Below the pieces are notes generated by a model. That model saw only the letters and a program-made list of their open reading frames with translations, did not search any database and was not told the origin of the DNA. This document shows positions 19,000 to 58,363 of a stretch of 64,000 nucleotides of DNA, in pieces. Origin of the DNA: Maribacter thermophilus (GTDB taxonomy: Bacteria; Bacteroidota; Bacteroidia; Flavobacteriales; Flavobacteriaceae); NCBI RefSeq assembly GCF_001020565.1, contig NZ_LDAS01000001.1, positions 410,402 through 474,401 of the forward strand, in the 5' to 3' direction. A program made the position numbers and the translations under genes. Numbering within the stretch: position 1 is the stretch's first letter; every line of letters begins with the position of its first letter.

Positions 19000-19008
19000 A
19001 AAATTTGA

Positions 19009-20103: not shown

Positions 20104-20109
20104 AGTTCA

Positions 20110-20388: not shown

Positions 20389-20391
20389 AAT

Positions 20392-34263: not shown

Positions 34264-34353
34264 CGTTTACCGAAAGTGGTTTACCATCTAACGACACTTT
34301 TACGTTATTCGTCTACAGCTAACTTTTATTGTCTTAACTTTATGAGACTTTTG
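34264..34353 (+). promoter_or_regulatory. Putative operator-promoter of the NO-sensing operon
   Basis: Three related elements precede a -7-like box: CGTTTACCG (34264), CATCTAACG (34285, exactly 21 bases on) and CGTCTACAG (34310). The box GACTTTTG (34346-34353; 7 of 8 match to TAnnTTTG) lies 36 bases after the start of the last element and 31 bases before the ATG. The same elements recur upstream of three exopolysaccharide genes. The 21-base period (two helical turns) fits a LytTR-type dimer site. Confidence 0.5.
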
Positions 34354-34376: not shown

Positions 34377-34778
34377 ATGAACATATTGCTTATTGAAGAT
34401 GATAGTATAGAAATTATGAAACTGGAAAGAACCGTTTCTAAATTAGAGGTAAAGCATAAGATTACCAAGGCAAAGAATGGGGAAGAAGCATTAGAGTACC
34501 TAAAATCGGATAGCAGGTTGCCCGATATTATTTTGCTGGACCTGAATATGCCCCGAATGAGCGGGATAGAATTTCTTTCAATTCTTAAGACAGACGAAGC
34601 ATTTAAATATTTGCCCACTATAATTCTTACAACTTCTGAAAACAGGGCAGATTTACTGGAATGTTACAAGGCAGGCATAGCTGGATACATTATAAAGCCT
34701 TTAAAATATGAGGATTACGAGTCAAAAATTAAAAAGGTTTTGTCTTATTGGGAGGTAAACGAACTGGTCAAAGCCTAA
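34377..34778 (+). CDS. CheY-like single-domain response regulator
   Basis: This 133-residue stand-alone receiver has acidic pocket IEDD at the N-terminus, phosphoacceptor Asp in DIILLDLNMPRMSG (about residue 60), Thr in IILTTSEN and Lys in GYIIKPLKYEDY. There is no output domain, so it would shuttle phosphate or bind a protein partner. It is the first gene behind the operator described upstream and precedes the H-NOX gene by 77 bases. It probably belongs to the same phosphorelay as the two kinases and the HPt protein. Confidence 0.9.
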   Translation: MNILLIEDDSIEIMKLERTVSKLEVKHKITKAKNGEEALEYLKSDSRLPDIILLDLNMPRMSGIEFLSILKTDEAFKYLPTIILTTSENRADLLECYKAGIAGYIIKPLKYEDYESKIKKVLSYWEVNELVKA

Positions 34779-34855
34779 CATAAAATAGTGATTCACAACA
34801 AAAAACTAAATTTCTGTATTACTTTTCTTACTTTTAATGTGTTATTCAAAAAAGT

Positions 34856-35398
34856 ATGAAAGGAATCGTTTTTACGGAATTTTTAGAAATGGTAGAGGCC
34901 AAATTTGGACTTGAGACCGTTGACAATATCATTGAAAAATCAGATTTGCCTTCTCAGGGAATCTATACATCCATTGCTTCGTATGATTTTAATGAAATGG
35001 TAAGTCTTATCACCCAATTGAGTGATGAGGTAGGGCTTGAACCGGGAGACTTGATATATGCTTTTGGACTGTATCTTTTTTCGGGTCTGAGCAAATCGCA
35101 TCCAGAGGTAATACAGAATTATAAAACACCCATAGGGCTTTTATATTCCATTGAAGACCATATTCATGTACATGTAAAAAAGTTGTATCCCGATGCCGAA
35201 TTGCCCACGTTTAAAATATTGGAAAAGACAGACACTTCACTTTCAATGGTCTATACTTCTTCTAGGGGGTTGTACAGATTGGCACACGGTCTAATCGAGA
35301 AAACTTTTGAACACTTTAATGGTAAGGCGGAAATTACATATGAACTATTAAAGGATGATGGTACCGAGGTTAAATTTGATATAGTTCAGCATGGATAG
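34856..35398 (+). CDS. H-NOX haem nitric-oxide sensor
   Basis: H-NOX domains bind haem and detect nitric oxide, passing the signal to a partner kinase. The 180-residue protein matches the family: N-terminal GIVFTEFLEMVEAKFGLETV; the haem-contact motif Y133-T-S135-S-R137 (YxSxR); and, upstream, DHIHVHVKKLYPDAELPTF, where alignment to canonical H-NOX proteins puts the proximal iron ligand at His104. It overlaps the following kinase by 8 bases, the standard arrangement for H-NOX and its kinase. Haem binding is predicted from motifs; gas selectivity (NO rather than O2) is inferred from the stand-alone architecture. Confidence 0.88.
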   Translation: MKGIVFTEFLEMVEAKFGLETVDNIIEKSDLPSQGIYTSIASYDFNEMVSLITQLSDEVGLEPGDLIYAFGLYLFSGLSKSHPEVIQNYKTPIGLLYSIEDHIHVHVKKLYPDAELPTFKILEKTDTSLSMVYTSSRGLYRLAHGLIEKTFEHFNGKAEITYELLKDDGTEVKFDIVQHG

Positions 35399-37757
35399 TA
35401 AGGAAGTTGTCCTGTTAAAAAAGGCACTTGAAAGACAAAAAAAAGCACGTCTTCAAGCGGAGAAGATACTGGAGGACAAATCAAACGAACTGTATGAAGT
35501 AAACCTACACCTTAGAGAGGCCAATAGCAGGTTAGAGAACCTTTTGAACGAAAAAACTTCTGAGCTAGACGGCGTCTTTATAAATATTATAGATCCCTAT
35601 GTTGTTATGGATCTTAATTTCGATGTAATAAACATGAATTCGTCTGCCAAAGAGTTTTTGCAGGTGGATCATACCAAACAGCGTGTAAACCTTTCGCGCT
35701 TTATACATACAGATTTTGCGGAGTACACCAGAGAATCGGTAAAATCACTGATGAAAGTGGGTATTTTAAAAAATTACCGAGCCAAGATCAATATAAATGA
35801 AGATAACGTAAAATGGGTGCAGATAAATGCCAGCATTGTATATGGTAAAAATAGAACACCAATAGGGGCTCAAGGTATTATAAGGGATATTACCCAAGAG
35901 ATGGAAGTAAAAAAACTGCTTTCCGATCAAAAAAAGCAACTAGACCTTATTGTAGAAAATTCCCCTTTGGGTATAGTACTTTCTACCAACGGAAAAATTG
36001 TTAAGACCAATAATTCTTTTGTGAAAATGCTTGGTTATTCTGAAAGTGAACTTAAAGAACTTTCCTTGAACCAAATATCACAACCCGATAGCTCAGAAGA
36101 GGTACTTCACAAAATGGAACAGATGGAAGCGGGTAAATTGGACAAATTTACATCTATCAATAAAATTACAAGAAAGAGCGGCGACCACATTTTGGCCAAA
36201 ATAATGGTGAATACCGTAGCCGATAGTAAGGGAGCTTTAGATTATCAATTGGCGATTATAGAGGATATATCAAAAGAACATGAAGCGGAACAAAAGTTGA
36301 AAGCTTCTGAAAACAGGTTGTCTACCTTGATCTCTAACTTACATACCGGCGTTTTATTGGAAGATGAAGATGGCAAGATTGCATTGACCAATCAAAGATT
36401 CTGTAATTTATTTTTAATACCTGCCACACCCGAGAAATTAAGAGGTTCTGACTACAGTGGTTTTGCCGAACAGAATAAATTTCATTTTAAGAACCCGATA
36501 GCGTTTGTAGAAAGAATAGGCCGGATATTGACGGATAAAAAAACAGTATTGTCCGAAGAATTGGAAATGGCAGATGGTAGGGTCTTGGAAAGGGATTATA
36601 TACCCATTTATACAGATGGTGTATACAAAGGTCACTTATGGGCCTACAACGATGTGACCATCAGCAAAAACCATAAAAGACACCTTGAGACGCAAAAAGA
36701 AAAGTATAGCAGTATTATAGCCAATATGAACTTAGGGTTGGTAGAGGTCGATAATGATGACATTATACAAATGGTAAACCAGAGTTTTTGTGATATGAGC
36801 GGTTTTGGGGAAGATGAGCTATTGGGAAAAAAGGCCATTGATATAATTAACATTACGAACGACGAGATAATCGGGGAAAAAAATAAAAATAGATTGGACG
36901 GCAAATCCGATTCTTATGAAATAGAGGTACGCACCAAAAAGGGAGAGAAAAGACATTGGCTTATCAGTGGGGCGCCCAGATATAACGATTCTGGATCGGT
37001 AATAGGATCTATAGGGATACATTTGGATGTTACAGATCAAAAACATCTAGAACTGCAAAAAGAGAAACTACTTGGAGAGTTAGAGCTGAGTAACCAAGGC
37101 TTGCAAGAATATGCGCATATAGTTTCACACGATCTTAAATCTCCCTTACGTAGTATAAGTGCCCTTGCCACATGGCTGAACGAGGATTATAAGGATGTGC
37201 TGGATGAAGGGGGCAGACAAAACCTAGATCTTATGCAAGAAAAGGTAGCTTCTATGGATAAGCTGATACATGGTATTTTGGAATATTCTACGGCTAATAG
37301 CGCTGAACTGGACAATTGCGATGTGGATCTTAACAGTGTGGTGACCGAGATAGAGGAAGTTATTTATATACCCGATCATGTTGAGCTATCGGTACCGACG
37401 GAGTTGCCCACAATTGTTGCTGACAGGACCAAAATGCACCAACTTTTTCAAAATATCATAGGTAATGCGGTCGTACATATAGAAAAAGAAAAGGGGTTGG
37501 TGGAAGTATTGTGTAATGAGGAGGTAGACTTTTGGCATTTTACCATCAAGGACAATGGAGTAGGCATTCCCAAAAAATATCATAAAAAGATATTCGACAT
37601 ATTTCAATCTATTGGAGAGAATGAAAGATCTACCGGTATTGGGCTATCTATAGTCAAAAAGATCATAGACCGTTACAAAGGCCGTGTATGGGTCGATAGC
37701 GAGGAGGGTAATGGAACTGAGTTTCATTTTACGATTAAAAAGAATTTGAGCAATTAA
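35391..37757 (+). CDS. Multi-PAS sensor histidine kinase, probable H-NOX partner
   Basis: This 788-residue cytosolic kinase has no membrane span. A coiled coil (about 5-55, with KALERQKKARLQAEKILED) is followed by about four PAS domains (60-180, 185-300, 300-430 and 430-555; for example SPLGIVLSTNGKIVKTNNSF and NLGLVEVDNDDIIQMVNQSF). HisKA follows with the phosphoacceptor at about His580 (IVSHDLKSPLRSISAL). The ATPase domain has N-box FQNIIGNAVVHIEKEKG, DNGVGIPKKY and TGIGLSIVKK. It starts inside the H-NOX gene, so the two are translationally coupled and H-NOX is its likely input. No receiver domain is fused, so it must pass phosphate to a separate receiver. Confidence 0.9.
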   Translation: MDSKEVVLLKKALERQKKARLQAEKILEDKSNELYEVNLHLREANSRLENLLNEKTSELDGVFINIIDPYVVMDLNFDVINMNSSAKEFLQVDHTKQRVNLSRFIHTDFAEYTRESVKSLMKVGILKNYRAKININEDNVKWVQINASIVYGKNRTPIGAQGIIRDITQEMEVKKLLSDQKKQLDLIVENSPLGIVLSTNGKIVKTNNSFVKMLGYSESELKELSLNQISQPDSSEEVLHKMEQMEAGKLDKFTSINKITRKSGDHILAKIMVNTVADSKGALDYQLAIIEDISKEHEAEQKLKASENRLSTLISNLHTGVLLEDEDGKIALTNQRFCNLFLIPATPEKLRGSDYSGFAEQNKFHFKNPIAFVERIGRILTDKKTVLSEELEMADGRVLERDYIPIYTDGVYKGHLWAYNDVTISKNHKRHLETQKEKYSSIIANMNLGLVEVDNDDIIQMVNQSFCDMSGFGEDELLGKKAIDIINITNDEIIGEKNKNRLDGKSDSYEIEVRTKKGEKRHWLISGAPRYNDSGSVIGSIGIHLDVTDQKHLELQKEKLLGELELSNQGLQEYAHIVSHDLKSPLRSISALATWLNEDYKDVLDEGGRQNLDLMQEKVASMDKLIHGILEYSTANSAELDNCDVDLNSVVTEIEEVIYIPDHVELSVPTELPTIVADRTKMHQLFQNIIGNAVVHIEKEKGLVEVLCNEEVDFWHFTIKDNGVGIPKKYHKKIFDIFQSIGENERSTGIGLSIVKKIIDRYKGRVWVDSEEGNGTEFHFTIKKNLSN

Positions 37758-37767
37758 AAAGTAACAA

Positions 37768-38901
37768 ATGAAAGTAGTCCAAGCAATAAAAAAGGCCGAT
37801 AAACCTTTTGTTTTTATTGGTAGTACAACGGAACTTAATAATCCGTTGGTTTTGGTATTTGGAAATAGATATGCTTTAGAAAGTCCGACCATCTACAAAG
37901 AGGTACAAGAATTATTCCCTACCGGACATATTGTTTTTGGAACTACTTCAGGAGAGATAATAGACGAAATGGTTCTGGAAGAAACAACCATTATTACTGC
38001 TATTGAGTTTCAAAAGAGTACATTTCTTATCAAAAGAAAAAATGTAGAGGATTATGGTCACGATGACTGTTTGCTCGGAGAAAGTTTAATGAAAGAGTTT
38101 CCGGAAGAAAACCTAAGACATCTTTTTGTAATTTCAGAAGGTAGTACCGTGAACGGCAGTGCGTTGATCAACGGATTGGAAAAAATTAAAAAGAAGCGCA
38201 TAGGCCTTTCGGGTGGGTTATGTGGAGATGATGACCGTTTTGAGCGAACATTGGTTTCTTATAATGAAAACCCCAGGGAGGGAGAGATTGTGGCCATTGG
38301 GTTTTATGGAGAAAGTTTAGAGATAACTAGCGCTAATTATGGAGGGTGGACCCCTTTTGGTCCAGAAAGAACCATTACCAAGTCACATGACAATATATTA
38401 TATGAACTGGACGGCAAGCCTGCCTTGGACCTATATAAAAATTATCTAGGAGAAAAGGCCTGCGAATTACCAAAATCCGCTTTACTGTACCCGTTGAGCG
38501 TAAAAACTTTAGATAGTGCGGAGCCTATAGTTCGCACTATATTAAATATAAACGATGAGGAAAATACCATGATCTTGGCCGGTGATGTTCCAGAAGGGGC
38601 AAAGGTACAATTAATGATGTCCTCTGTAGATGATATTGCCAATGGGGCGTACCAAGCGGCCCAGTTAGCCATGGAGGGCAGAACTAACGCACCTGAGTTT
38701 GCTCTTTTGGTAAGCTGTATTGGAAGAAAATTGGTAATGGATCAAAGGACCGAAGAAGAAATCGAAGAGGTAAGGTCGGTTGTAGGCGAAAATACGCTTA
38801 TAAGTGGTTTTTATTCTTACGGTGAAATGGCACCTTTTGTAACCACAAGTGCATGTAAATTACACAACCAGACAATGACCTTAACCCTATTTAGCGAGTA
38901 A
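37768..38901 (+). CDS. FIST-domain sensor protein (NosP-like)
   Basis: This 377-residue protein has a FIST_N part (about 10-200: FVFIGSTTELNNPLVLVFGN, VFGTTSGEIIDEMV, GLSGGLCGDDDRFERT) and a FIST_C part (about 205-360: GGWTPFGPERTITKSHDNIL, YELDGKPALDLYKNYLGEKA, ALLVSCIGRKLVMDQRTEEE, GFYSYGEMAPF). Some FIST proteins (NosP) bind haem and sense NO, acting on a co-encoded kinase. The gene lies 10 bases after the H-NOX kinase, and its stop overlaps the next kinase by one base, the typical NosP-kinase layout. Haem binding is not proven by sequence; amino-acid sensing is the alternative FIST role. Confidence 0.85.
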   Translation: MKVVQAIKKADKPFVFIGSTTELNNPLVLVFGNRYALESPTIYKEVQELFPTGHIVFGTTSGEIIDEMVLEETTIITAIEFQKSTFLIKRKNVEDYGHDDCLLGESLMKEFPEENLRHLFVISEGSTVNGSALINGLEKIKKKRIGLSGGLCGDDDRFERTLVSYNENPREGEIVAIGFYGESLEITSANYGGWTPFGPERTITKSHDNILYELDGKPALDLYKNYLGEKACELPKSALLYPLSVKTLDSAEPIVRTILNINDEENTMILAGDVPEGAKVQLMMSSVDDIANGAYQAAQLAMEGRTNAPEFALLVSCIGRKLVMDQRTEEEIEEVRSVVGENTLISGFYSYGEMAPFVTTSACKLHNQTMTLTLFSE

Positions 38902-39965
38902 TGCATTCATTGTTAAGAAGACAGTTAAGAAAATATATTTCGGCAGATACGCAGTCATTGCCAGAAATTGAAGCGTTTTTACAAGCGGTAGAAAAATCAT
39001 ACGAAAATTATGATGAGAAATTGGCTATGTTGCATAGGGCGACCTCTATAAGTTCTGAAGAGCTTTATGAAGCCAATAAACAACTAGAAAGTGAATCTGC
39101 CAGACAAAAAAACATTTTAACTTCTTTAGAAAAAGCAATTGGCAGTTTAACCGACAACCTAAAGCAAGAACAAGCTTTTGGACAAAATAAGATTGATGAG
39201 TTCAATGCCGAACATTTGGCGGAATACATAAGTAATTTGGCTTCGCAAGTAGCACAAATGAACGAGGAAAAGGATAGGTTTTTGAAGAGTTTGGAAGAAC
39301 AGAACCAAGCCTTGAACAATTATGCACAAGTAGTTTCACATGATCTAAAATCTCCGATAAGAAATATAAACGCCCTTATGAGCTGGATCATGGAAGATGA
39401 AAAAGAAAAATTTTCAAATGCCAGTAAAGAAAACTGCTCGCTAGTTGCCCAGAACCTGGAAAAAATGGATAAATTAATTTCGGGCATACTTAACCATGCA
39501 ACTTTGGGCAAAACCAAAGAGCAAAGAGTTAGCTTTGAACTAAAAGATGTTTTAAAAGAGACCGTACGAACGATCTATGTTCCCGACAATATTAAAATTA
39601 TACTAGCGGAGAATCTTCCCAAAATGGTTTTTGAAAGAGCCCGTTTAGAGCAAATGTTCATGAATTTGCTTACCAATGCCATATCTGCCACAGAAAAAAA
39701 AGAAAGGGGATTAATAAAGATAGATTATGAACCAGATGAATTATACTGGAAATTTATAGTTTCCGATAACGGTAAGGGTATTCCAGAACATTATCAAGAA
39801 AGTATTTTTGAAATGTTCAAAAAGTTAGAAAACGAAGGTAATGGAACGGGAATAGGACTTGCCCTGGTAAAAAAAATAGTAGTCCTATATGATGGAGATA
39901 TACGGTTAAAATCGGAAGAAGGCAAGGGTACAACTTTTTATATCAAATTAAAAAAAGAACTATGA
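38901..39965 (+). CDS. Soluble histidine kinase coupled to FIST protein
   Basis: This 354-residue kinase has no recognisable sensor domain and no membrane span. The first 135 residues are coiled-coil rich (SEELYEANKQLESESARQKN). HisKA carries His147 in VVSHDLKSPIRNINALMSWI, and the ATPase domain shows FMNLLTNAISATEKKERG, DNGKGIPEHY and GTGIGLALVKK. The start overlaps the FIST stop by one base, so FIST is its likely input partner. The dimerisation helix sequence is very close to that of the H-NOX kinase nearby, so both could feed the same receivers. It overlaps the HPt gene by 4 bases. Confidence 0.88.
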   Translation: MHSLLRRQLRKYISADTQSLPEIEAFLQAVEKSYENYDEKLAMLHRATSISSEELYEANKQLESESARQKNILTSLEKAIGSLTDNLKQEQAFGQNKIDEFNAEHLAEYISNLASQVAQMNEEKDRFLKSLEEQNQALNNYAQVVSHDLKSPIRNINALMSWIMEDEKEKFSNASKENCSLVAQNLEKMDKLISGILNHATLGKTKEQRVSFELKDVLKETVRTIYVPDNIKIILAENLPKMVFERARLEQMFMNLLTNAISATEKKERGLIKIDYEPDELYWKFIVSDNGKGIPEHYQESIFEMFKKLENEGNGTGIGLALVKKIVVLYDGDIRLKSEEGKGTTFYIKLKKEL

Positions 39966-40282
39966 TAGAACAACCCAACCTAAAATACGTGGATGATCTG
40001 GCAGGTGACGATATGGCCTTTAGAGAACAGTTTATCGTTATTTTAAAAGAGGAGTTTCCTAAAGAAAAGGAAACATATATAAACCATATAGAGAACAAAA
40101 GGACAAAAGAAGCGGCGGAAATCGTTCACAAACTAAAGCATAAATTCAATATCTTGGGAATGGAAGAATCCTATAGGCTTGCCGTTACGTACGAAAAAGA
40201 GCTTCTGGAAGGGCAAACCACTGCAGATACCAAGTTTAAAAAGATATTGGATACCATTGAGGAGTATATTAAAAAAATATAA
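39962..40282 (+). CDS. Histidine phosphotransfer (HPt) protein
   Basis: This 106-residue stand-alone HPt relays phosphoryl groups between receivers. The helical segment EIVHKLKHKFNILGMEESY carries the phosphoacceptor His56 in the typical HKLK context, with Gly65 at the usual place behind it. It overlaps the kinase gene by 4 bases and abuts the LytTR gene directly. Together with the stand-alone receiver at the head of the operon, this allows a four-step phosphorelay ending at the LytTR regulator. Confidence 0.85.
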   Translation: MIEQPNLKYVDDLAGDDMAFREQFIVILKEEFPKEKETYINHIENKRTKEAAEIVHKLKHKFNILGMEESYRLAVTYEKELLEGQTTADTKFKKILDTIEEYIKKI

Positions 40283-40993
40283 ATGAACTGTATTGTTATA
40301 GACGATGAAGCAACGGCAAGGGCCATAATCACCAAATTATGCGGTACAGTGCAAGATTTGGTTGTAATAGAGGAATTTGACAATGCTATCGATGCCATTA
40401 AGTTTTTAAACCAACAAAGTGTTGATATCGTCTATTTGGACATTCATATGCCAGGTTTTACAGGCGTGGATTTTGTACAGACCTTAAAGAACCCCCCTAA
40501 AATAGTTTTGACCACCTCAGATACCGATTTTGCCATCGAAGCATATGAGTATGAGTGTATTGTAGATTATTTGGTAAAACCGGTAACACCAGAACGTTTC
40601 GAAAAAAGCTTTCTAAAGATTAAAAATGCCATCTTGCAAAAACCAAAAGATAACGGTAATGAGAGTCAAGAAGCCGATTTGAAAGGAGACCTTTATATAA
40701 ATATAGACCGGCGGTTGATAAAATTAAAGTTCAATGAAATTTTGGTTATAGAGGCCAAGGGAGATTATATAGGTGTAAAAACAGAGAAAGAGGAATATCG
40801 TGTACATACCACCCTAAAAAAGATAAAGGAAAAATTGCCCGAGAAGTTGTTTCTACAAATACACAGATCATATATTATTAACTTCACCAAAATAATAGAT
40901 ATAGAAGATAACAGTGTATTGATAGAAAAAAACGTGATTCCTATTAGTAGATCCAATAGGCCAGAGCTTATGAGAAGGTTAAACCTTTTGTGA
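40283..40993 (+). CDS. LytTR-family DNA-binding response regulator
   Basis: This is the transcriptional output of the operon. The 236-residue protein has a receiver (1-120) with acidic pocket IDDE, phosphoacceptor Asp53 (VYLDIHMPGFTG), Thr in LTTSDTDFAIEAY and Lys in DYLVKPVTPERF. A LytTR DNA-binding domain follows (about 130-236: GDLYINIDRRLIKLKFNEIL, IEAKGDYIGVKTEKEEYRVH, LQIHRSYIINFTKI, IPISRSNRPELMRRL). LytTR proteins bind pairs of 9-base direct repeats about 21 bases apart. Such repeats occur at the operon's own promoter and at exopolysaccharide promoters at 45.6, 47.1 and 58.3 kb, so it is the prime candidate regulator of all four. The target assignment is inference. Confidence 0.92.
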   Translation: MNCIVIDDEATARAIITKLCGTVQDLVVIEEFDNAIDAIKFLNQQSVDIVYLDIHMPGFTGVDFVQTLKNPPKIVLTTSDTDFAIEAYEYECIVDYLVKPVTPERFEKSFLKIKNAILQKPKDNGNESQEADLKGDLYINIDRRLIKLKFNEILVIEAKGDYIGVKTEKEEYRVHTTLKKIKEKLPEKLFLQIHRSYIINFTKIIDIEDNSVLIEKNVIPISRSNRPELMRRLNLL

Positions 40994-41499: not shown

Positions 41500-41501
41500 G
41501 G

Positions 41502-43441: not shown

Positions 43442-45496
43442 TTACTTAAAAAGCTGGTCAGAAAAGATAGGCTTGTTTAAAAAAAGCCATTTAATCTTAA
43501 AACCAATTTCAGTAAATTCGAATCCAGCAGCTGTAGCAGAGGCAATATTGCTATACTTACCATAAATACGAGCGTTGAGGCGTTTTGTTATTTGGTGTTG
43601 TATAGCTGCTTCGGCCCTAAAAATACTAGTGTTGGCGTCTTGTTCTACTTGTTGAAATCCGGTGGCGGCACTTGCGATGTAGGTAGTCTTTTGAGAAATT
43701 TGGCCTCTAACATCTGCAAATAACTCAAAGGCTTGGTATTTTTCTGGACTAAAATAGATGGTAGGTAATTGTTCTTTAAATGTGATGTATTGGTAGTTAA
43801 CTCCTATTTTTAAGGCCGGTTTTCTAAATAATGTATAGTATAGCGAGGTAAATAATAAGTTACGGTTATTATTGTCACTCTGCTGTGTATGAATTAGTTG
43901 TGTATACCAGCCAAGGTTTATATTGGTTCCTAGGTTGTAGTTAATGCCGTAGTGGTTCTGAACAATTTCACGTTCAATAAGATCTGCGTTAAAATTCTGA
44001 ACTTCTCGTTGGTATCCTAAGGTGAGGTTTTGCAATTTGAAGGGCTGAAGCATTAACCGGGTATCTATTACCGGTTGCGTATAGGCGTCATCCATAAATC
44101 TAGAATTATTAAAACCTATTACCGTTTTTAAGGTTGTTTTTGGAAGTATTTTATAGATCAACCCTGCTAAAACAACATGCGAATTTGCCTTGTGCTCCGT
44201 AACGGTATTTTTTGTGGTACGGTACAAATAAGAAATGGTAGTCCTAAATTTTGACGAAAAAGGCAATTCGGCGGTGGTATTCGTATAAAAAGCAACGTTA
44301 TTGCCATTGTCAAACGTATAGGCCGCATGTTCTTCTATACTTGGCGTATGCATCAAGTTCAGTTTTTCGATAAAACCTATAGCATCTTTTTGGTTTTTAT
44401 AAAAAGAAAGGGTCTTATTGGCCATCTCATAAGCAGGCATTATATGGTCGGCAGCAAATAGGGCATTTGCCTTACCCAAGTTTCCATCAAAAGAGGTGCT
44501 ATCGTTGGCCAATATTTTATTGTAACTATAGATACTATTTTTTGGCGCTCCGGTGTACAGGCCCAATGTGGCTTTTAGTGCCAACACCCAATTGGTGTTC
44601 GGGTATACCTTTTCAAGGCTGTCTATTTGCTTTTTGGCCGTTATAAATTTACGGTTCCATATCAATGCCTGTACATAACGGTCATAGGTACGTTGGGTAA
44701 GTATAGTATCGTTAAAAAACTGTACCATAGATTTGGCCCGTAGAGAGGTTGTAAGGGCTTCTTTGTCTTTTTCGTTTATATGTGCCGCCAAAGAGATACC
44801 GTTTAATGCGGTAACGGAATCTTTTGGGCTAGTGGCGTACCTCTGGTACATTTTACTGGCACGCTCGGTTTTTTTGGTAATAAGATATAGGTTGGCCAAA
44901 TTCAAAAGGGCATCCTTGTCTTCTGGAAAATCAATAAAAATCGTGTTTAATATGGTCTCTCCCTTCTCATATTTTTGGTTGTTAACAAATTCATTGGCGT
45001 AGCCCAATCTCATATACTTACGAGAAATTTTTGCACTTTCGTTCTCCGGTTTTAGGGCAAGCGCTTTTTCTATCCAGTTTAGTGCTGATTCGTATTCCTT
45101 TAGGTTACTCAAGGTATTTGCATACCCTAACAAGGCTCCAAATTTATCAGGATTTTCCTTCACCAATTTTTCATATAAAGGCTTCGCCCTTTCATACTCT
45201 TTTGCCCATAAAAACGATTCATTGTAATTGATCTGTATTTCAAAATCTTTTGGATATTCTTCTAAAAGCGCTCTGAACAAGGTGGTCGCTTGCTCGGGTT
45301 CTCCACTTAAACCGACCGCTCTGGCGTAACATAAACGGGCCGTCTTGTTCTTGGGATCACTTTTTAAATAAGTTTCAAAAAATGCTTCCGCTTCTTGAAA
45401 GTTACCCTTTTCCAACATTTCAAAACCTTGTGACATATCGGACTGTGCCCTCAATAAGGTAGTGAAAGCTAAAAAAAGAAAAAGAAATTTCCGCAT
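43442..45496 (-). CDS. TPR-containing outer-membrane beta-barrel protein (YaiO-like; possible polysaccharide exporter)
   Basis: A signal peptide (MRKFLFLFLAFTTLLRAQ) leads a 684-residue protein. The first half (about 20-400) is a stack of TPR repeats (EMLEKGNFQEAEAFFETYLK, LNLANLYLITKKTERASKMY). The second half (about 410-684) alternates polar and aromatic beta strands as in a YaiO-type barrel (TTISYLYRTTKNTVTEHKAN, LTLGYQREVQNFNADLIERE, LKIGVNYQYITFKEQLPTIY). The order periplasmic TPR then outer-membrane barrel is shared with exporters such as PgaA, BcsC and PelB, though this barrel is shorter. The neighbouring flippases and glycosyltransferases support a role in exopolysaccharide export; that is inference from architecture and context. 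Confidence 0.78.
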   Translation of the reverse strand: MRKFLFLFLAFTTLLRAQSDMSQGFEMLEKGNFQEAEAFFETYLKSDPKNKTARLCYARAVGLSGEPEQATTLFRALLEEYPKDFEIQINYNESFLWAKEYERAKPLYEKLVKENPDKFGALLGYANTLSNLKEYESALNWIEKALALKPENESAKISRKYMRLGYANEFVNNQKYEKGETILNTIFIDFPEDKDALLNLANLYLITKKTERASKMYQRYATSPKDSVTALNGISLAAHINEKDKEALTTSLRAKSMVQFFNDTILTQRTYDRYVQALIWNRKFITAKKQIDSLEKVYPNTNWVLALKATLGLYTGAPKNSIYSYNKILANDSTSFDGNLGKANALFAADHIMPAYEMANKTLSFYKNQKDAIGFIEKLNLMHTPSIEEHAAYTFDNGNNVAFYTNTTAELPFSSKFRTTISYLYRTTKNTVTEHKANSHVVLAGLIYKILPKTTLKTVIGFNNSRFMDDAYTQPVIDTRLMLQPFKLQNLTLGYQREVQNFNADLIEREIVQNHYGINYNLGTNINLGWYTQLIHTQQSDNNNRNLLFTSLYYTLFRKPALKIGVNYQYITFKEQLPTIYFSPEKYQAFELFADVRGQISQKTTYIASAATGFQQVEQDANTSIFRAEAAIQHQITKRLNARIYGKYSNIASATAAGFEFTEIGFKIKWLFLNKPIFSDQLFK

Positions 45497-45617
45497 TATT
45501 TAAAAGTAAGATTAATACTACATACGTCTAACGTTCATAATGTTGTTTTATTAGAACTATTGGACTTTATAAAGGTAAAGTAGCCTATATATTCTCGGAA
45601 GTACGATAAATGCCATT

Positions 45618-45682
45618 CGTCTACAGCAACTTGTATTCTACCCATGGTGGTAGAATAAAAACATCTTTCAACGAGATATTTG
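45618..45682 (+). promoter_or_regulatory. Putative operator-promoter of flippase gene 1
   Basis: CCATTCGTCTACAG (CGTCTACAG starts at 45618) lies exactly 57 bases upstream of the -7-like box GATATTTG (45675-45682), itself 49 bases before the ATG. The same 57-base spacing is found upstream of the genes at 47194 and 58410, and the 49-base leader matches the 47194 promoter. There is no good -33 TTG, which suggests activator dependence. Only one strong element is present here. Confidence 0.5.
45635..45656. repeat. 22-base palindrome within the flippase 1 promoter
   Basis: ATTCTACC and GGTAGAAT form perfect 8-base arms around CATGGT, inside the operator-promoter region and upstream of the -7 box. 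It takes the place where the second 21-base-phased element occurs in the other promoters. It may be a separate factor site or a symmetric operator serving the divergent TPR/kinase operon as well. Confidence 0.6.
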
Positions 45683-45723: not shown

Positions 45724-46962
45724 ATGACTGCAATTAGATTAGCTTTTGATAAAATTTCCCCTGAACGTTTGTTCATGGCCAGTGTACTTTTAGTGAATGG
45801 GGGAAACTATTTATATAATTTATTTTTGGGCAGAATACTTGGTCCGGAAGCGTTCTCCGAAGCGGCATTGTTAATAACCCTGTTATTGGTATTATCGTTT
45901 TTAGGAATGACATTTCAGCTGGCTACGGCAAAGTTCTCGGTGTTGTTTTCAAATACTGACTGGTTGGCCTTTCAACAATTAATATATAGGTACGCGCTTA
46001 CCTTTGGTATAGTGATAGGGGCGTTACTTTTTATATTTTCAGGAAACCTGCAAGAGGTATTTAATACAGAATCCGATGGCCTGTTCAAAACTTTTGCAAT
46101 GGGGGTGCCGCTCTATTTTTTTATGTCGGTGAATAGGGGTAAGTACCAAGGAGTACAAGATTTTAAGAATCTTTCGGTAACCTACCAAGCAGAAATGTGG
46201 AGCAGATTGGTCATTACCCTTTTGTTGCTCTTGTCAGTGCCCCTACAACCTGCTTTTTTGGTATCTATAGGTATTGCGATCTCTTTTGTGTTCGGTTTGG
46301 TACCTACTAATTTTAAGTTGTCAACCCTAACAAAAAAGATAACCCTTCCCAAGGCCCATAAAAAAAAGGTATGGAATTTCTTGATTCTTACCGCTTGTTA
46401 TGAACTTACGCAGATCGTAATAAATAACAGTGATATTCTTTTGGTAAAACATTATTTCGACGCTTCCGAGGCCGGTCTATATTCATCCTTGGCATTGATC
46501 GGTAGAGTAGTCTATTTTGTAGCCTGGATGTTTGTAATGTTACTATTGCCTACCGTAGTACAAAAACAAAAAGACGGTGAAGCCACTGCACCGATACTTA
46601 TTAAATATGTTAGTTATATAGGAGTGCTGTCGTTATCAATAGTATTGTGCTGTGCAATTTTTCCAAAATTTATAGTAGAACTAATGTTCGGCGAAGCATA
46701 TCTTTCAATGGCTCCGCTATTATGGCAGTATGCCTTGGCAACCTCTTTATTTGCGGTCTCTAATATATTCGCCTATTACTTTTTGTCCTTGGATAAATAC
46801 ATTCCCGTTATAATATCAGGTTTATTAGGATGTACACAGGTAATATTGATCATGTTTTTTCATAACAGTCTCTTTATCGTAGTACAAGTTCAGATTATTG
46901 CCATGGTGGCCTTATTGGTGGTTCAGTTACTGTACTTTATGCACCATCAAATTATGCATTAG
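45724..46962 (+). CDS. Wzx-like polysaccharide flippase, copy 1
   Basis: This 412-residue membrane protein has about 12 hydrophobic helices and belongs to the polysaccharide transport/MOP superfamily. It begins with VLLVNGGNYLYNLFLGRILG, the usual first helix, and carries the central ACYELTQIVINNSDILLVKH segment and VYFVAWMFVMLLLPTVVQKQ. It would flip lipid-linked repeat units or chains across the inner membrane. The copy at 49780 is very similar along its length, each followed by a GT4 gene. It has its own promoter with the shared operator. Confidence 0.88.
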   Translation: MTAIRLAFDKISPERLFMASVLLVNGGNYLYNLFLGRILGPEAFSEAALLITLLLVLSFLGMTFQLATAKFSVLFSNTDWLAFQQLIYRYALTFGIVIGALLFIFSGNLQEVFNTESDGLFKTFAMGVPLYFFMSVNRGKYQGVQDFKNLSVTYQAEMWSRLVITLLLLLSVPLQPAFLVSIGIAISFVFGLVPTNFKLSTLTKKITLPKAHKKKVWNFLILTACYELTQIVINNSDILLVKHYFDASEAGLYSSLALIGRVVYFVAWMFVMLLLPTVVQKQKDGEATAPILIKYVSYIGVLSLSIVLCCAIFPKFIVELMFGEAYLSMAPLLWQYALATSLFAVSNIFAYYFLSLDKYIPVIISGLLGCTQVILIMFFHNSLFIVVQVQIIAMVALLVVQLLYFMHHQIMH

Positions 46963-47193: not shown

Positions 47194-48420
47194 ATGAGAC
47201 TAGCAATTGTAACAGCATACCCACCAAGTAAAGTAACTTTAACCGAGTATGGTTATCATTTGGTAAAACATTTTAGGCTACAAAAGGAAGTAACCGAGAT
47301 TATTTTGATTACCGATAGAACAGAAGGGGGTAAAGATGTTGATTTTGAGGGGGATGGATGTAGAATTACGGTGAAAGAATGTTGGGATTTTAACAATTAT
47401 ACCAACCTTATAAAAATCAATAAGGTAATTTCGGACACCAAACCCGATGCCGTATTCTTTAATCTTCAATTCTTAAAATTCGGGGATAAGAAAATACCTG
47501 CGGCACTGGGCCTATTGTTGCCGTTTATTTGCAAGCTCAAAGGAATACCTACGATTTCTTTGTTACATAATATTCTAGAGCAGGTAGACTTGGAAAATGC
47601 AGGATTTACCTCTAATAAAATATTGCAAAAGACATATAATTTTATAGGAAGTACATTGACCAAATTTGTTCTGGCATCCGATGTAGTGGCAGTTACGATC
47701 AGTAAGTATAAGGGTATTCTTGAAGAAAAATACAAATCAAAAAACGTTGCCTTGGTACCTCATGGAGCTTTTGAAACTCCGCCAGAGCCCAATTATGAAC
47801 TAAAAAAAGGTCCGAAACAGGTGATGGCATTTGGTAAGTTCGGCACTTATAAAAAGGTGGAAATTATGATCGAGGCGGTTGAGCTGATAAGACAGCGCAC
47901 CCATGAGGATATCGAAATTGTTATCGCTGGTACGGATAGCCCAAACACTCCAGGTTATTTAGAGGCCATAAAAAACAAGTATGCCCATGTGGATCAATTA
48001 CGTTTTACCGGATATGTTGCCGAGGAGGATGTTCCCGTAATTTTCGGGGAAAGTACGGTAGTAGTGTTCCCTTATACCTCTACAACTGGTAGTTCTGGAG
48101 TATTGCATCAGGCCGGTAGTTACGGTAAGGCCGTTGCATTGCCAGATATGGGCGACCTGGGTATTTTGGTCAAGGAAGAAGGCTACAGGGGAGAATTTTT
48201 TGAGCCGGAAAATACAGCATCTTTGGCAGACGCCATTGAAAATATATTAATGAACGATGCTTATAGGGTGCAGCTGGGCAGAACCAATTATAAGGCCGCA
48301 TGTTCATTGCCCATGTCAGATATTACCCAAATGTATGTGGATTATTTTAGGGCGCTACAAATGACAAAATCAACAGAATTTAACTTAGATATTACAGAGA
48401 AAGAAAAAGAAATGGTCTAA
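47194..48420 (+). CDS. GT4-family glycosyltransferase, copy 1
   Basis: This 408-residue GT-B-fold transferase uses an activated sugar donor to extend an exopolysaccharide precursor. N-terminal domain: RLAIVTAYPPSKVTLTEYGY, TISLLHNILE. C-terminal donor-binding domain (about 200-380): VMAFGKFGTYKKVEIMIEAV, ELIRQRTHEDIEIVIAGTDS, RFTGYVAEEDVP, VFPYTSTTGSSGVLHQAGSY (the usual E-x7-E position is modified). There is no signal or membrane span. The copy at 51096 is highly similar throughout, including this unusual TTGSSGVLHQAG block. Confidence 0.88.
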   Translation: MRLAIVTAYPPSKVTLTEYGYHLVKHFRLQKEVTEIILITDRTEGGKDVDFEGDGCRITVKECWDFNNYTNLIKINKVISDTKPDAVFFNLQFLKFGDKKIPAALGLLLPFICKLKGIPTISLLHNILEQVDLENAGFTSNKILQKTYNFIGSTLTKFVLASDVVAVTISKYKGILEEKYKSKNVALVPHGAFETPPEPNYELKKGPKQVMAFGKFGTYKKVEIMIEAVELIRQRTHEDIEIVIAGTDSPNTPGYLEAIKNKYAHVDQLRFTGYVAEEDVPVIFGESTVVVFPYTSTTGSSGVLHQAGSYGKAVALPDMGDLGILVKEEGYRGEFFEPENTASLADAIENILMNDAYRVQLGRTNYKAACSLPMSDITQMYVDYFRALQMTKSTEFNLDITEKEKEMV

Positions 48421-48607: not shown

Positions 48608-49747
48608 ATGAAAATTCTAGCCATTGATGACCAACAGTTGATACTCTTGTCTGTTGAGAAACGACTCAAAGAATTAGGGTATACCGTGATGACCGCCAAC
48701 TCAGGTCAGAAGGGTATGGAATTATTTGATTCTTTTGATCCCGATCTTGTTCTTGTAGATATAAATATGACCGATATGTCCGGCTTAGAGGTCGTAAAAT
48801 ATATAAAGTCCAAGGGTGAAAATAAGGCCCAGGTAATGGTCATGTCCGGCAACACAGAAGAAAATATAATTATCGATGGCTTTACCTTGGGTATCGATGA
48901 TTATATGAAGAAGCCCGTTAGTTTAGATGAAATGGCGGCCCGTATAAAAAGACTTATTGGGGTACCAAAGGTAAATAATAATGTAAAAGTTACGGCAGGG
49001 GCCAGAATGCTTCAAAAGAATTGTGTAGGTGTTGTTATCCCTTGTTACAATGAAGAAGAGCGGTTGTTAAGTATTGAGTTTAAGGATTTTGCCCATAAAA
49101 ACCTCGGATATCACCTATGTTTTGTAAATGATGGTAGTACCGATAATACCCTCGAGGTATTAAAGAAATTGCAAGACGGAAGCGAAAGTAATATCAGTAT
49201 TTACGACTGTGCCAAAAATGGCGGAAAGGCAGAGGCCGTTCGCCAAGGAATGCTATTCTTGGAAAAAGACGAACAATTAGATTATATAGGTTTCTTGGAT
49301 GCCGATCTATCTACCGATTTTAGGGATTTTGATGATTTGGTAGAAACATTGGACCAATCAAGTTTTAAAATTGTCAGTGGTTCTAGAATGAGTAGGATGG
49401 GAGCTAATATTACAAAAGAATCGGCACGTAAGATTATAAGCATGACCATTAATCTTATTATTAGAACCATTTTAAGAATGCCTTTTAACGATACACAGTG
49501 CGGAGCCAAAGTAATGGACCGTTCCGTGGTTCCCATACTCTTTGGTAAACCATTTATCACCAAATGGTTGTTCGATGTGGAAATGTTCATAAGAATGCGA
49601 AAACATTATGGTAAAACCGAAGCAAAGAAACTTATATGTGAGCAACCATTGAAAAGATGGATACATGCGGATGGGTCTAAACTATCCATGAAAGATTCTG
49701 TAAAAATTGTGGGGCAGTTGGCTAAGATTGCCTTTGTGTACAGATAA
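48608..49747 (+). CDS. Receiver-GT2 fusion glycosyltransferase, copy 1
   Basis: This 379-residue protein joins two domains rarely fused. Residues 1-120 are a complete receiver: acidic pocket AIDD, phosphoacceptor Asp51 (VLVDINMTDMSG), Ser in MVMSGNTEE and Lys in DYMKKPVSLDEM. Residues about 137-375 form a GT2 transferase like dolichyl-phosphate glucosyl/mannosyltransferases: CVGVVIPCYNEEERLL, CFVNDGSTDNTLEVL, NGGKAEAVRQG, the DxD site in FLDADLSTDFRDFD, and CGAKVMDR. There is no membrane span. The obvious reading is a cytosolic transferase whose activity or partner binding is switched by phosphorylation. A close paralogue is at 58410. The next flippase starts 32 bases later. Confidence 0.9.
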   Translation: MKILAIDDQQLILLSVEKRLKELGYTVMTANSGQKGMELFDSFDPDLVLVDINMTDMSGLEVVKYIKSKGENKAQVMVMSGNTEENIIIDGFTLGIDDYMKKPVSLDEMAARIKRLIGVPKVNNNVKVTAGARMLQKNCVGVVIPCYNEEERLLSIEFKDFAHKNLGYHLCFVNDGSTDNTLEVLKKLQDGSESNISIYDCAKNGGKAEAVRQGMLFLEKDEQLDYIGFLDADLSTDFRDFDDLVETLDQSSFKIVSGSRMSRMGANITKESARKIISMTINLIIRTILRMPFNDTQCGAKVMDRSVVPILFGKPFITKWLFDVEMFIRMRKHYGKTEAKKLICEQPLKRWIHADGSKLSMKDSVKIVGQLAKIAFVYR

Positions 49748-49779: not shown

Positions 49780-51063
49780 ATGTCCGTAATCAAGATAGCC
49801 TTAAGTAGAGTCTCTCCTAAACAAGTGTTTATGGGCAGTGCTTTATTGGTAAATGGAGGCAATTACCTTTATAATCTTCTCTTAGGTAGACTTTTAGGGC
49901 CTGAAGCCTTTGCGGATGCCGCGTTATTGGTCACCTTACTTTTGGTGTTGTCCTTCGTAGGAATGACTTTTCAATTGGCGACTACCAAATTTGCGGTTTT
50001 GTTTTCTAATGAAAAATGGACTGCGTTTAAAAATACCCTATATCGTTATGCATTGGTTTTTGGAGTAGTTACAGGTTTTACCGTTTTCATTTTCTCAAAA
50101 AAACTTCAGATACTGTTCAATACACAAAATCACTATATGTTTATGGTTTTTGCCATTGCCATGCCCTTGTATTTTGTAATGAGCGTAAATAGGGGCAGGT
50201 TTCAGGGTAGACATGAATTTGGCAAATTGGCGGCTACCTATCAAACAGAAATGTGGGGCAGGTTACTTGTAACTTTTGGGCTGTTGCTGTTACTACCTGT
50301 AGAAACAGGAATTTTAATTGCTATCGGTATCGCCGTATCGTTTGTTTTTGGCCTTTTTCCTTCTAATTTTAAAGGTGTTCAGGTTTTTTCAAAGCACAAA
50401 TTATCTTCTGTAGATTTAAGACAAGTTTGGATTTTTATTGGGCTTACCGCAGGTTATGAACTTACACAGATAATCATTAATAATAGTGATATTCTTTTGG
50501 TAAAGCACTATTTTGATGATAAGGATGCGGGACTATATGCATCGTTGGCCTTGATTGGTAGGGTGGTTTATTTTGTAGCCTGGATGTTTGTGATGTTGTT
50601 GATGCCAACCGTAATTCAAAAACAAAAGGACGGAGAGGCCACGGCACCGGTTCTATTTAAATATGTACTCTTTATTGGGACTTTGTCCACATTAATTGTT
50701 TTTGCATGCTATTTAATGCCCAATTTGATCATAACCTTAATGTTTGGCGATGCCTATTTATCAATAGCACATTTATTGTGGAAATATGCCTTGGCAACCT
50801 CGCTGTTCGCGGTCTCCAATATTTTTGCATACTATTTTCTTTCCTTAAACCGGTATGCCCCAGTAATACTATCAGGTATCCTTGGGCTTTTACAAGTGGT
50901 ATTGATAATGGTTTTTCATGATAGCCTGGTGCATGTAGTGCATGTACAGATTATTGCCATGGTTGTTCTACTGGTAGCCCAACTACTATTTTTTATAATC
51001 AAAAACGAATCAAATAAAAACAATACAAAGAAATCAGAATTGCTTGGAGAGAATATTCTCTAG
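49780..51063 (+). CDS. Wzx-like polysaccharide flippase, copy 2
   Basis: This 427-residue multi-span transporter is paralogous to the gene at 45724, with blocks ALLVNGGNYLYNLLLGRLLG, LVLSFVGMTFQLATTKFAVL, ELTQIIINNSDILLVKHYFD and VYFVAWMFVMLLMPTVIQKQ. A polar C-terminal tail (KNESNKNNTKKSELLGENIL) of about 20 residues is absent from copy 1. It lies close behind the receiver-GT2 gene and 32 bases before the second GT4, so these three form a compact transcript. Two flippase and GT4 pairs imply either two related glycans or a hetero-complex. Confidence 0.88.
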   Translation: MSVIKIALSRVSPKQVFMGSALLVNGGNYLYNLLLGRLLGPEAFADAALLVTLLLVLSFVGMTFQLATTKFAVLFSNEKWTAFKNTLYRYALVFGVVTGFTVFIFSKKLQILFNTQNHYMFMVFAIAMPLYFVMSVNRGRFQGRHEFGKLAATYQTEMWGRLLVTFGLLLLLPVETGILIAIGIAVSFVFGLFPSNFKGVQVFSKHKLSSVDLRQVWIFIGLTAGYELTQIIINNSDILLVKHYFDDKDAGLYASLALIGRVVYFVAWMFVMLLMPTVIQKQKDGEATAPVLFKYVLFIGTLSTLIVFACYLMPNLIITLMFGDAYLSIAHLLWKYALATSLFAVSNIFAYYFLSLNRYAPVILSGILGLLQVVLIMVFHDSLVHVVHVQIIAMVVLLVAQLLFFIIKNESNKNNTKKSELLGENIL

Positions 51064-51095
51064 CTTTTTAATAATAGAATTAAAAAATAATCGAC

Positions 51096-52325
51096 ATGAG
51101 ACTAGCAATCGTAACGGCATACCCTCCAAGTAAAGTAACCCTGACCGAATATGGTTATTATTTGGTAAAGCATTTTAGGCTACAAAAAGAGGTAACCGAG
51201 TTAATTTTGATCACCGATCGTACAGACGGCCCCAAAGATTTGAACTTTTCAGGGGGTGGATGTAAGATTACGGTAAAGGAATGTTGGAGCTTTAATAGCT
51301 ATCGTAATATTATAGGTATTAGTAAAACAATATCGGAAACCAAGCCAGATGCTGTTTTGTTCAACCTTCAGTTTTTAAAATTTGGTGATAAAAAAGTACC
51401 GGCCGCTTTGGGTTTAATGCTTCCGTATATCTGTAAGTTAAAAGGAATTCCGACCATTTCTCTCTTGCATAATATTTTGGAAAAAGTAGATTTGGAAAAT
51501 GCGGGTTTCACAAAAAACAGACTGTTACAAAGTGCATATAATCTGATTGGGACCACGCTCACCCGTTTTGTTCTTGCATCGGATGTACTTGCGGTGACCA
51601 TTAGTAAATACGTTACTATTTTAGAAAATAAGTACAAGGTCAGAAACGTGGCATTGGTTCCTCATGGTGCTTTTGAAACCCCACCGGAACCCAGTTATCA
51701 TCTTCCGGCAGGGCCTAAACAGGTAATGGCCTTTGGTAAGTTTGGTACCTATAAAAAAGTGGAGATAATGATCGAGGCCGTAGAATTGATACGACAACGT
51801 ACCAACGAGGATATAGAAATTGTAATCGCCGGTACCGATAGCCCCAATACGCCAGGTTATTTAGATGAGATGAAAGAAAAATATAGCCATGTGCCACAAA
51901 TTAGATTTACGGGGTATGTTGCCGAAGAAGATGTGCCAATGCTTTTTGGCGAAAGTGCGGTTACCGTTTTTCCATATACCTCAACAACAGGTAGTTCGGG
52001 GGTTTTACATCAAGCCGGGAGTTACGGTAACGCAATAGTGTTGCCAGACCTGGGAGATTTAAGCACCTTGGTACAGGAAGAGGGGTATAGGGGCGAGTTT
52101 TTTGATGCCTATGATACTTCTTCTTTGGCACAGGCCATTGAGAATATCTTAATAAACGAGGAATATAGAATACAGCTTGGTAAAGAGAATTATAGAGCGG
52201 CATGTTCACTGCCCATGTCTGCGATTACCCAAATGTATATCGATTATTTTAAGGCCATTCGGAAATCTAAAAAACTTGGTTTTGATATGGATATTTCAGC
52301 TATTGAAAAGAAATTGGTTCATTAA
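51096..52325 (+). CDS. GT4-family glycosyltransferase, copy 2
   Basis: This 409-residue GT-B transferase is highly similar to the gene at 47194 from the first residues (RLAIVTAYPPSKVTLTEYGY) to the C-terminus (YRAACSLPMSAITQMYIDYF). The donor-site region has VMAFGKFGTYKKVEIMIEAV, RFTGYVAEEDVP and VFPYTSTTGSSGVLHQAGSY. Differences cluster in the N-terminal acceptor domain (for example SFNSYRNIIGISKTISETKP in place of DFNNYTNLIKINKVISDTKP). This fits two enzymes with the same donor but slightly different acceptors. A good terminator follows. Confidence 0.88.
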   Translation: MRLAIVTAYPPSKVTLTEYGYYLVKHFRLQKEVTELILITDRTDGPKDLNFSGGGCKITVKECWSFNSYRNIIGISKTISETKPDAVLFNLQFLKFGDKKVPAALGLMLPYICKLKGIPTISLLHNILEKVDLENAGFTKNRLLQSAYNLIGTTLTRFVLASDVLAVTISKYVTILENKYKVRNVALVPHGAFETPPEPSYHLPAGPKQVMAFGKFGTYKKVEIMIEAVELIRQRTNEDIEIVIAGTDSPNTPGYLDEMKEKYSHVPQIRFTGYVAEEDVPMLFGESAVTVFPYTSTTGSSGVLHQAGSYGNAIVLPDLGDLSTLVQEEGYRGEFFDAYDTSSLAQAIENILINEEYRIQLGKENYRAACSLPMSAITQMYIDYFKAIRKSKKLGFDMDISAIEKKLVH

Positions 52326-58277: not shown

Positions 58278-58363
58278 CATCGAACTTAAAAAACCATTCG
58301 TCTACACAAAAATGCATCCCGTCCGTTCGAGGTAAAAATCGACGTCTAATGCCGGTAGATTTG
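58278..58363 (+). promoter_or_regulatory. Putative operator-promoter of receiver-GT2 gene 2
   Basis: Three elements in exact 21-base steps, CATCGAACT (58278), CGTCTACAC (58299) and CGTCCGTTC (58320), lie 78, 57 and 36 bases upstream of a perfect TAnnTTTG box, TAGATTTG (58356-58363). The ATG is 54 bases after the start of the box. Another CGTCTAATG lies at 58343. CCATTCGTCTAC here is identical to the copy at 45.6 kb. There is no -33 TTG. The region also divides this gene from the divergent membrane-protein operon. Confidence 0.6.

Follow-up and report, generated by a model that had tools for sequence, protein, structure and literature searches.

The closest described relatives of the system treated here are the nitric oxide (NO) circuits of vibrios. 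In Vibrio cholerae (NosP-VpsS-LuxU-LuxO) and V. harveyi (H-NOX-HqsK-LuxU) a stand-alone haem sensor acts on a cytosolic kinase, and phosphate passes through a shared histidine phosphotransfer (HPt) protein to a DNA-binding regulator, with the vps genes downstream in V. cholerae (as outlined in PMC6769237). Here we analyse a 64,000-nucleotide stretch of Maribacter thermophilus DNA (Flavobacteriaceae), positions 410402-474401 of contig NZ_LDAS01000001.1 (C1 of genome G000, 4.05 Mb), called the window below. It carries a seven-gene operon which, with moderate confidence, we read as a similar soluble relay in which haem sensors would tune two kinases sharing one HPt protein and a LytTR regulator which would activate polysaccharide genes, cyclic di-GMP (c-di-GMP) playing no part. 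The vibrios encode the HPt protein and the regulator apart, whereas here both sensors, both kinases, the HPt protein and the LytTR regulator are found in one operon. A further difference is that the vibrio kinases are hybrid kinases and LuxO acts through small RNAs according to the same source (PMC6769237), whereas the LytTR regulator has candidate direct sites at polysaccharide genes.

Other known systems share parts of this arrangement. Shewanella oneidensis (HnoX-HnoK-HnoB-HnoD) likewise has H-NOX control of a histidine kinase which phosphorylates a response regulator, but the output described in PMC8846402 is c-di-GMP turnover, whereas here the output domain is LytTR and the genome has no GGDEF match. 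As far as the reviews were available to us, they too name mostly c-di-GMP or quorum sensing as outputs of H-NOX and NosP. NosR-NosP-NosK of Burkholderia pseudomallei (PMC12570481) and NosP-NahK-NarR of Legionella (PMC11237717) also combine a FIST protein and a kinase in an operon, and NosK, like our kinase 2, is described without a recognised sensor domain (PMC12570481). Their regulators, however, carry c-di-GMP-type domains and the operons as described in these two sources contain no H-NOX; a further difference is that the FIST protein of the window falls well short of the NosP equivalog cut-off. Kordia algicida belongs, as does Maribacter, to the Flavobacteriaceae, and its H-NOX is known from structure and simulation, with no operon or output in the part of that paper available to us (PMC7356049). 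Group 1 of the H-NOX neighbourhoods has FIST genes within five genes of hnox, as here, but the available part of the paper describes no relay, LytTR or target genes for it (PMC8738867). The proximity of FIST to hnox was hence known before; new here is the relay output, that is, the promoter boxes and the neighbouring polysaccharide genes. Among the matches listed in the open-licence literature, a scope which leaves most subscription papers outside, no title or beginning of an abstract describes this system.

The seven genes lie on the same strand (34377-40993) and were taken from the list of open reading frames (ORFs). For comparison we used named relative loci, which are the best 80 of 147 related loci.

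34377..34778, plus strand: RR1, a single-domain receiver, Asp55 (ORF, Pfam Response_reg, alignment; present in 80/80 named loci)
34856..35398, plus strand: H-NOX (haem-NO-binding) sensor, His104 (ORF, Pfam, alignment)
35391..37757, plus strand: multi-PAS histidine kinase 1, His580 (ORF, Pfam PAS, HisKA and HATPase, alignment)
37768..38901, plus strand: FIST/FIST_C sensor, NosP-like (ORF, Pfam FIST and FIST_C, NCBIfam, alignment)
38901..39965, plus strand: histidine kinase 2, His147, without recognised sensor domain (ORF, Pfam HATPase, alignment)
39962..40282, plus strand: HPt phosphotransfer protein, His56 (alignment, sub-threshold Pfam, predicted structure)
40283..40993, plus strand: LytTR response regulator, Asp53 (ORF, Pfam LytTR and Response_reg, alignment)

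An initial annotation of the window had already proposed a seven-gene phosphorelay operon ending in a LytTR regulator, with tight spacing from H-NOX onward and with His104 and a YTSSR motif in H-NOX. All seven ORFs were indeed found where it had placed them, six of them with their domains above the Pfam gathering score (for the HPt protein see below). A gap of 77 base pairs (bp) separates receiver and H-NOX; the following junctions are, in order, an overlap of 8, a gap of 10, overlaps of 1 and 4 and a gap of 0 bp, so the tight spacing (overlaps up to 8, gaps up to 10 bp) is borne out. His104 and YTSSR (residues 133-137) are both present, and the latter we take to be the YxSxR haem motif of H-NOX. 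The product of the last gene has a receiver and a LytTR domain, both over the Pfam gathering score, and its phospho-Asp is present.

Both sensors are recognisable members of their families. H-NOX matches Pfam HNOB with 134.1 bits (gathering score 25.5) and keeps His104 in 80/80 aligned rows. Its closest named relative within the best 80 loci is that of Maribacter sp. MMG018 (97% identity), and the closest solved H-NOX is the Kordia protein (PDB 6bdd/6bde), to which the match spans residues 1-176 with His104 kept. The FIST protein scores 143.1 bits for FIST and 118.9 bits for FIST_C, both over the Pfam cut-off. Candidate residues picked from the alignments are His366, which all of 15 aligned FIST proteins share, and His118, present in 47/47 operon FIST rows. 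Sequence searches of the PDB with the FIST and with the HPt protein found nothing useful. From homology, both sensors would bind haem and NO, and nitric oxide is the putative ligand.

The kinase cores are 39% identical to each other, compared with 26-28% to kinase 3, a neighbouring histidine kinase (see below). Kinase 2 matches Pfam only with its HATPase, and no sensor domain was recognised. The length of kinase 1 changes in steps between species (about 536, 661 and 790 residues), which look like a one-by-one gain or loss of PAS domains. For the HPt protein there is no Pfam match at E<=0.001; in a search at E<=1 it scores 18.8 against Pfam Hpt, below the gathering score of 24.6. At this threshold all but one of 11 aligned members match Pfam Hpt (best 1.9e-4), the protein of the window being among the 10 that do. 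The AlphaFold2 model has a predicted local distance difference test (pLDDT) value of 93.7, and its ten best PDB matches are all HPt domains, the best being 3myf (template modelling score 0.76, Foldseek E 0.17; none at E<=0.001). His56 is kept in 72/72 rows. Since Pfam finds a receiver in neither kinase, kinase, RR1, HPt, LytTR would be the natural order of phosphotransfer.

The receiver-H-NOX pair is kept in 80/80 named loci. The full order receiver, H-NOX, kinase 1, FIST, kinase 2, HPt and LytTR is found in 43 of them (one with an extra receiver-like gene), the full order minus LytTR in 2 and the order minus FIST and kinase 2 in 27; the remaining 8 end at contig ends. FIST and kinase 2 thus behave as an all-or-none insert, with both genes in 45 loci, adjacent in each of these, and neither in 27 (8 contigs being incomplete). 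In the FIST-less loci the HPt gene starts at -14 to +6 bp from the end of kinase 1 in 26/27, the other one (L053) having 104 bp. Therefore kinase 1 presumably feeds the HPt protein, and the merging of two kinases on one HPt protein which the initial annotation had thought possible is strengthened by the 27/80 loci that keep HPt and LytTR without the FIST-kinase 2 pair. On a tree of 70 loci, FIST presence changes 10 times, at least 7 of these changes being forced by starred branches. It is clustered on the tree (0/500 shuffles are as low), with gain and loss indistinguishable.

Outside the named loci, 13 of 15 further loci of the family (L220-L234) have the full core called; in L225 the FIST frame is broken and neither HPt nor LytTR is called, and in L228 the calls include neither a receiver nor H-NOX. 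At order level, L235 and L236 are without most core genes. The third such locus, L237 (G091), has H-NOX, kinase, receiver, a weak HPt call and LytTR in a different order. The exact seed box (see below) is absent from L235-L237 and also from L002, L006 and L023. H-NOX occurs in 27/395 genomes across the phylum, and 7 of 36 genus genomes are without an H-NOX match. FIST-kinase pairs also stand alone elsewhere, for instance in L238, L239 and L241-L243; L249, from a relative without H-NOX match, has two tandem FIST genes followed by a kinase-like gene. Because the same gene order recurs in dozens of species, the locus appears to be more than a chance assembly. Wherever H-NOX exists, we checked whether the genes are scattered in close relatives, which would have spoken against the initial annotation; this was not the case.

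Upstream of the operon we find a repeated box, CCATTCRYCKACAST, in tandem at 21 bp. The seed of the box, ATTCRYCKAYA, occurs in 84 of 93 distinct operon upstream regions and never on the opposite strand (the rows are related, not independent). Thirty upstream regions have two exact boxes, and the spacing is 21 bp in 30/30 pairs. In the window the elements are these.

34286..34296, plus strand: degenerate first box (box 1) of the operon's tandem LytTR-type site, with 3 mismatches when compared with the two-box pattern and 21 bp upstream of box 2
34307..34317, plus strand: box 2 of the tandem site, ATTCGTCTACA, weight matrix score 18.1
34350..34353, plus strand: TTTG, putative -7 element, exactly 64 bp after box 1
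45613..45628, plus strand: box before the flippase gene, weight matrix score 25.3, with TTTG at 45679
58294..58309, plus strand: box before REC-GT2b, weight matrix score 22.8, with TTTG at 58360

TTTG we take to be the consensus of the Bacteroidota -7 element. It stands exactly 64 bp after box 1 in 3/3 promoters of the window, in 9/9 flippase, 8/8 STAS and 2/2 other promoters, in 11/13 promoters of group-1 glycosyltransferase (GT4) genes (the other two at 63 bp) and in 44/93 operon promoters. A weight matrix, trained without the window and applied to the 49 seed matches in this genome, left three strong intergenic same-strand sites before genes. All three are in the window, at 34305 (operon), 45613 (flippase) and 58294 (receiver-glycosyltransferase fusion). 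In 80 loci 47 further sites score at least 17, all on the plus strand, with an ORF start called downstream in 32/47. One good box, in L128 (score 17.9), has no ORF start within 260 bp. When two boxes were searched in this genome with 3 mismatches, 8 matches (the operon being one of them) stood against 4 for the reversed control, which is near noise; the search for the full geometry with one mismatch gave 9 matches against 4. Exact full-geometry matches are only three, two of them before genes at most 24 kb from the operon and the third (L264) antisense inside a long ORF. A one-mismatch match at C1:559298 (L266) stands about 160 bp before an ORF of 207 residues.

We suggest the LytTR regulator as the candidate protein that binds these 21-bp direct repeats at promoters. 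Among the 72 loci with HPt, the LytTR gene is absent from just two, L088 (Pseudozobellia) and L104 (Euzebyella), where the tetratricopeptide repeat (TPR) gene directly follows HPt and where flippase and GT4 are present. The same two loci have the lowest of 79 operon-box scores (-11.0 and -14.5), the other 77 being at least 9.2. Operon box and LytTR gene are thus jointly absent, as judged from the sequences. Moreover, the exact motif occurs in 41/53 genomes with H-NOX compared with 16/96 others (149 genomes; Fisher 3.7e-13, relatedness ignored). Within the genus the counts are 27/29 with versus 1/7 without H-NOX and in the rest of the family 14/19 versus 10/35; beyond the family they are 0/5 versus 5/54. 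One of the 96 negatives, G008, is doubtful, as its contig L240 stops within the kinase 1 gene of the operon, and the absence of H-NOX is probably an assembly gap.

The boxes also suggest where the signal goes. They precede many flippase, glycosyltransferase and STAS genes and, in this genome, also receiver-glycosyltransferase genes (REC-GT2, a receiver fused to a family-2 glycosyltransferase) of the neighbouring polysaccharide cluster. The initial annotation was right about the genes of the operon and missed this output, namely the shared promoter sites and the polysaccharide cluster, whose members follow.

43442..45496, minus strand: TPR protein with weak BCSC_C similarity (just under the cut-off), convergent neighbour, possibly for polysaccharide export
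45724..46962, plus strand: flippase (Polysacc_synt_3), putative target (Pfam, upstream box)
47194..48420, plus strand: group-1 glycosyltransferase, GT4 (Pfam; no box scoring at least 9 here, the homologue in relatives having its own box)
48608..49747, plus strand: REC-GT2a, receiver fused to a family-2 glycosyltransferase (Pfam, sequence)
49780..52325, plus strand: second flippase and second group-1 glycosyltransferase (Pfam)
58410..59564, plus strand: REC-GT2b, receiver fused to a family-2 glycosyltransferase, putative target (Pfam, upstream box)

The convergent TPR gene is present in 51 of 61 LytTR loci with full flanks. The 36 genus genomes have 84 exact motif sites, and 62 remain when the 22 at the operon are left out; 56 of these stand at most 320 bp before a same-strand ORF, and 6 have no such ORF start. 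The genes that follow encode a small secreted protein (33 sites), GT4 (13), a flippase (5), a 299-residue protein (3; two of these ORFs were scanned and are family-2 glycosyltransferases) and REC-GT2 (2). For each class the distance from box to start is nearly fixed, with 26/33 small-protein sites at 88 bp and the GT4 sites at 106-109 bp. Both REC-GT2 fusions keep the LVLVDINM phospho-Asp region and could form a second, post-translational branch with direct phospho-control of a sugar transferase.

Two further kinds of gene with an upstream box were seen in relatives. The small proteins (about 76-86 residues, probably secreted; L170, L172, L178, L192, L193 and L213) are often tandem duplicates with a box for each copy, and the two that were scanned have no Pfam match. 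Secreted proteins of about 860 residues with a C-terminal sorting tail directly follow the LytTR gene in L047:14066-16645 and L221:6842-9430, one with DUF4114 and one with DUF6923.

A c-di-GMP output was set aside. A search confined to GGDEF, leaving EAL and HD-GYP aside, gave no match in this genome and none in 147 of the 149 genomes searched; two genomes have matches, one of them over the cut-off. Because of this absence the usual c-di-GMP output is unlikely here.

We suggest the following mechanism. It builds on what the DNA itself shows: which genes are present and conserved, that FIST and its kinase behave as a module, and where the boxes lie, how they are spaced and which targets they precede. 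H-NOX as the first input and FIST as an optional second input would act as stand-alone haem sensors which set the activity of the kinases encoded by the adjacent genes. Both kinases would pass phosphate via a receiver, probably RR1, to the single HPt protein and from there to the LytTR regulator. Phosphorylated LytTR would then occupy the tandem boxes, 21 bp apart, upstream of the -7-like TTTG and activate its own operon together with the neighbouring genes for a surface or exopolysaccharide. Activation would fit better than repression, since the sites stand upstream of the -7-like element. The NO-bound sensor probably inhibits its kinase, as NO-bound H-NOX and NosP are described to do in Vibrio (PMC6769237), and NO would for this reason lower matrix synthesis. 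According to PMC11237717, however, NosP of Legionella activates its kinase; a lowering of polysaccharide gene expression by NO is therefore our guess at the likelier sign. A more far-reaching version, in which the HPt protein drives both LytTR-dependent transcription and the enzyme activity of the REC-GT2 fusions, as a c-di-GMP-free gas-to-matrix switch of the Flavobacteriaceae on which two haem sensors converge and to which the FIST-kinase cassette is added or lost, we regard as rather unlikely.

The signal itself could be a different one. The same relay and regulon might respond to haem, O2 or redox state through H-NOX or FIST, or to a PAS ligand through kinase 1, which is a distinct possibility if a somewhat unlikely one. 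The FIST protein CdpA of V. cholerae is reported as a haem sensor (PMC8846402), and heme-free V. cholerae H-NOX can be a Cys/zinc redox switch (as given in PMC8738867). One O2-binding H-NOX carries a distal Tyr140 (PMC7356049), and Tyr140 of the window H-NOX, invariant (80/80) in our alignment, might correspond to it. In kinase 1 there are several PAS domains, and species differ in the length of this kinase. The window H-NOX, however, has no Cys anywhere in its sequence, so that a Cys/zinc switch is ruled out for it. The Tyr of the O2 type, presumably located at Arg135+5, would fall on Leu142 and not on Tyr140 when counted from the conserved Arg. In addition, the closest solved H-NOX, that of Kordia, favours NO in the simulation reported in PMC7356049.

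The other two alternatives concern the wiring. The operon could hold two independent two-component systems, H-NOX/kinase 1/RR1 and FIST/kinase 2/HPt/LytTR, each sensor having its own kinase and FIST-kinase pairs standing alone elsewhere. HPt and LytTR, however, remain without FIST and kinase 2 in 27/80 loci, directly behind kinase 1 in all but one of them, and the two kinase cores resemble each other more than kinase 3; we have set this explanation aside as very improbable. It is also conceivable that another LytTR paralogue binds the boxes or that they are a general promoter type, linked to the operon only by neighbourhood. In L222 a second LytTR-like gene adjoins the operon, and the exact motif is held by genomes without an H-NOX match (16/96). 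Yet there are boxes in front of the operon itself, which both LytTR-less loci have lost at this place, and two of the three exact full-geometry matches of this genome lie before genes close to the operon. We consider this explanation unlikely.

Several observations count against the relay and regulon that we propose. A single seed is noisy in this genome (49 matches versus 19 for the reversed seed), the exact 15-base motif is absent from it and box 1 of its operon is degenerate. TTTG is found at +64 in 0/26 small-protein promoters, and the small secreted protein was rejected as a target in this genome because its four homologues (C1:1768327-1781153) are all without a box. Nor are target boxes universal: at a score of at least 15 they occur in the named loci before 10/34 flippase, 14/28 GT4, 11/27 STAS and 0/8 REC-GT2 genes, some target genes being boxless because the unit starts with STAS. 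In the two LytTR-less loci neither flippase nor GT4 has a good box, but this holds for many LytTR-bearing loci as well and is therefore weak evidence alone; the upstream sequences of the two loci are also alike, so that both losses may be one event. To this come the genomes with the exact motif that lack an H-NOX match and the absence of the motif from all five order-level H-NOX genomes. On the side of the sensors, the invariant Tyr140 slightly lowers our confidence. The FIST protein reaches 62.2 bits against the NCBIfam NosP equivalog and fails its cut-off of 450. The protein belongs, by its sequence, to the FIST family, and a proven NosP status is unsupported. Of the two candidate NO sensors of the initial annotation, H-NOX and a FIST protein in one operon, each adjoining its own kinase, are retained and the NosP label is dropped.

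Some neighbouring genes deserve mention. Directly upstream of the operon lies a gene for a DUF7133 protein with a C-terminal cytochrome c domain (31965-34199), found among the compared loci only in this genome and its nearest relative (L029/L031). Convergent with the operon are kinase 3, whose sensor is Cache-like, and a single receiver (41089-43289, minus strand); among the 61 LytTR loci with full flanks, 13 have a homologue of this kinase, which is a possible crosstalk partner. The window further contains hydrogenase maturation genes HypD and HypF with an AIR-synthase-like gene (17938-22653, minus strand).

In summary, these Flavobacteriaceae have almost no GGDEF, and the operon is a concrete candidate for the link from a gas signal to biofilm or surface behaviour. 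With it come a proposed regulon and a promoter geometry that is fixed. Natural variation supplies controls, since some loci have the FIST input and others do not, and two lack the LytTR gene. This makes it possible to test whether two sensors merge on one HPt protein and whether polysaccharide synthesis might be under direct phospho-control through receiver-glycosyltransferase fusions.

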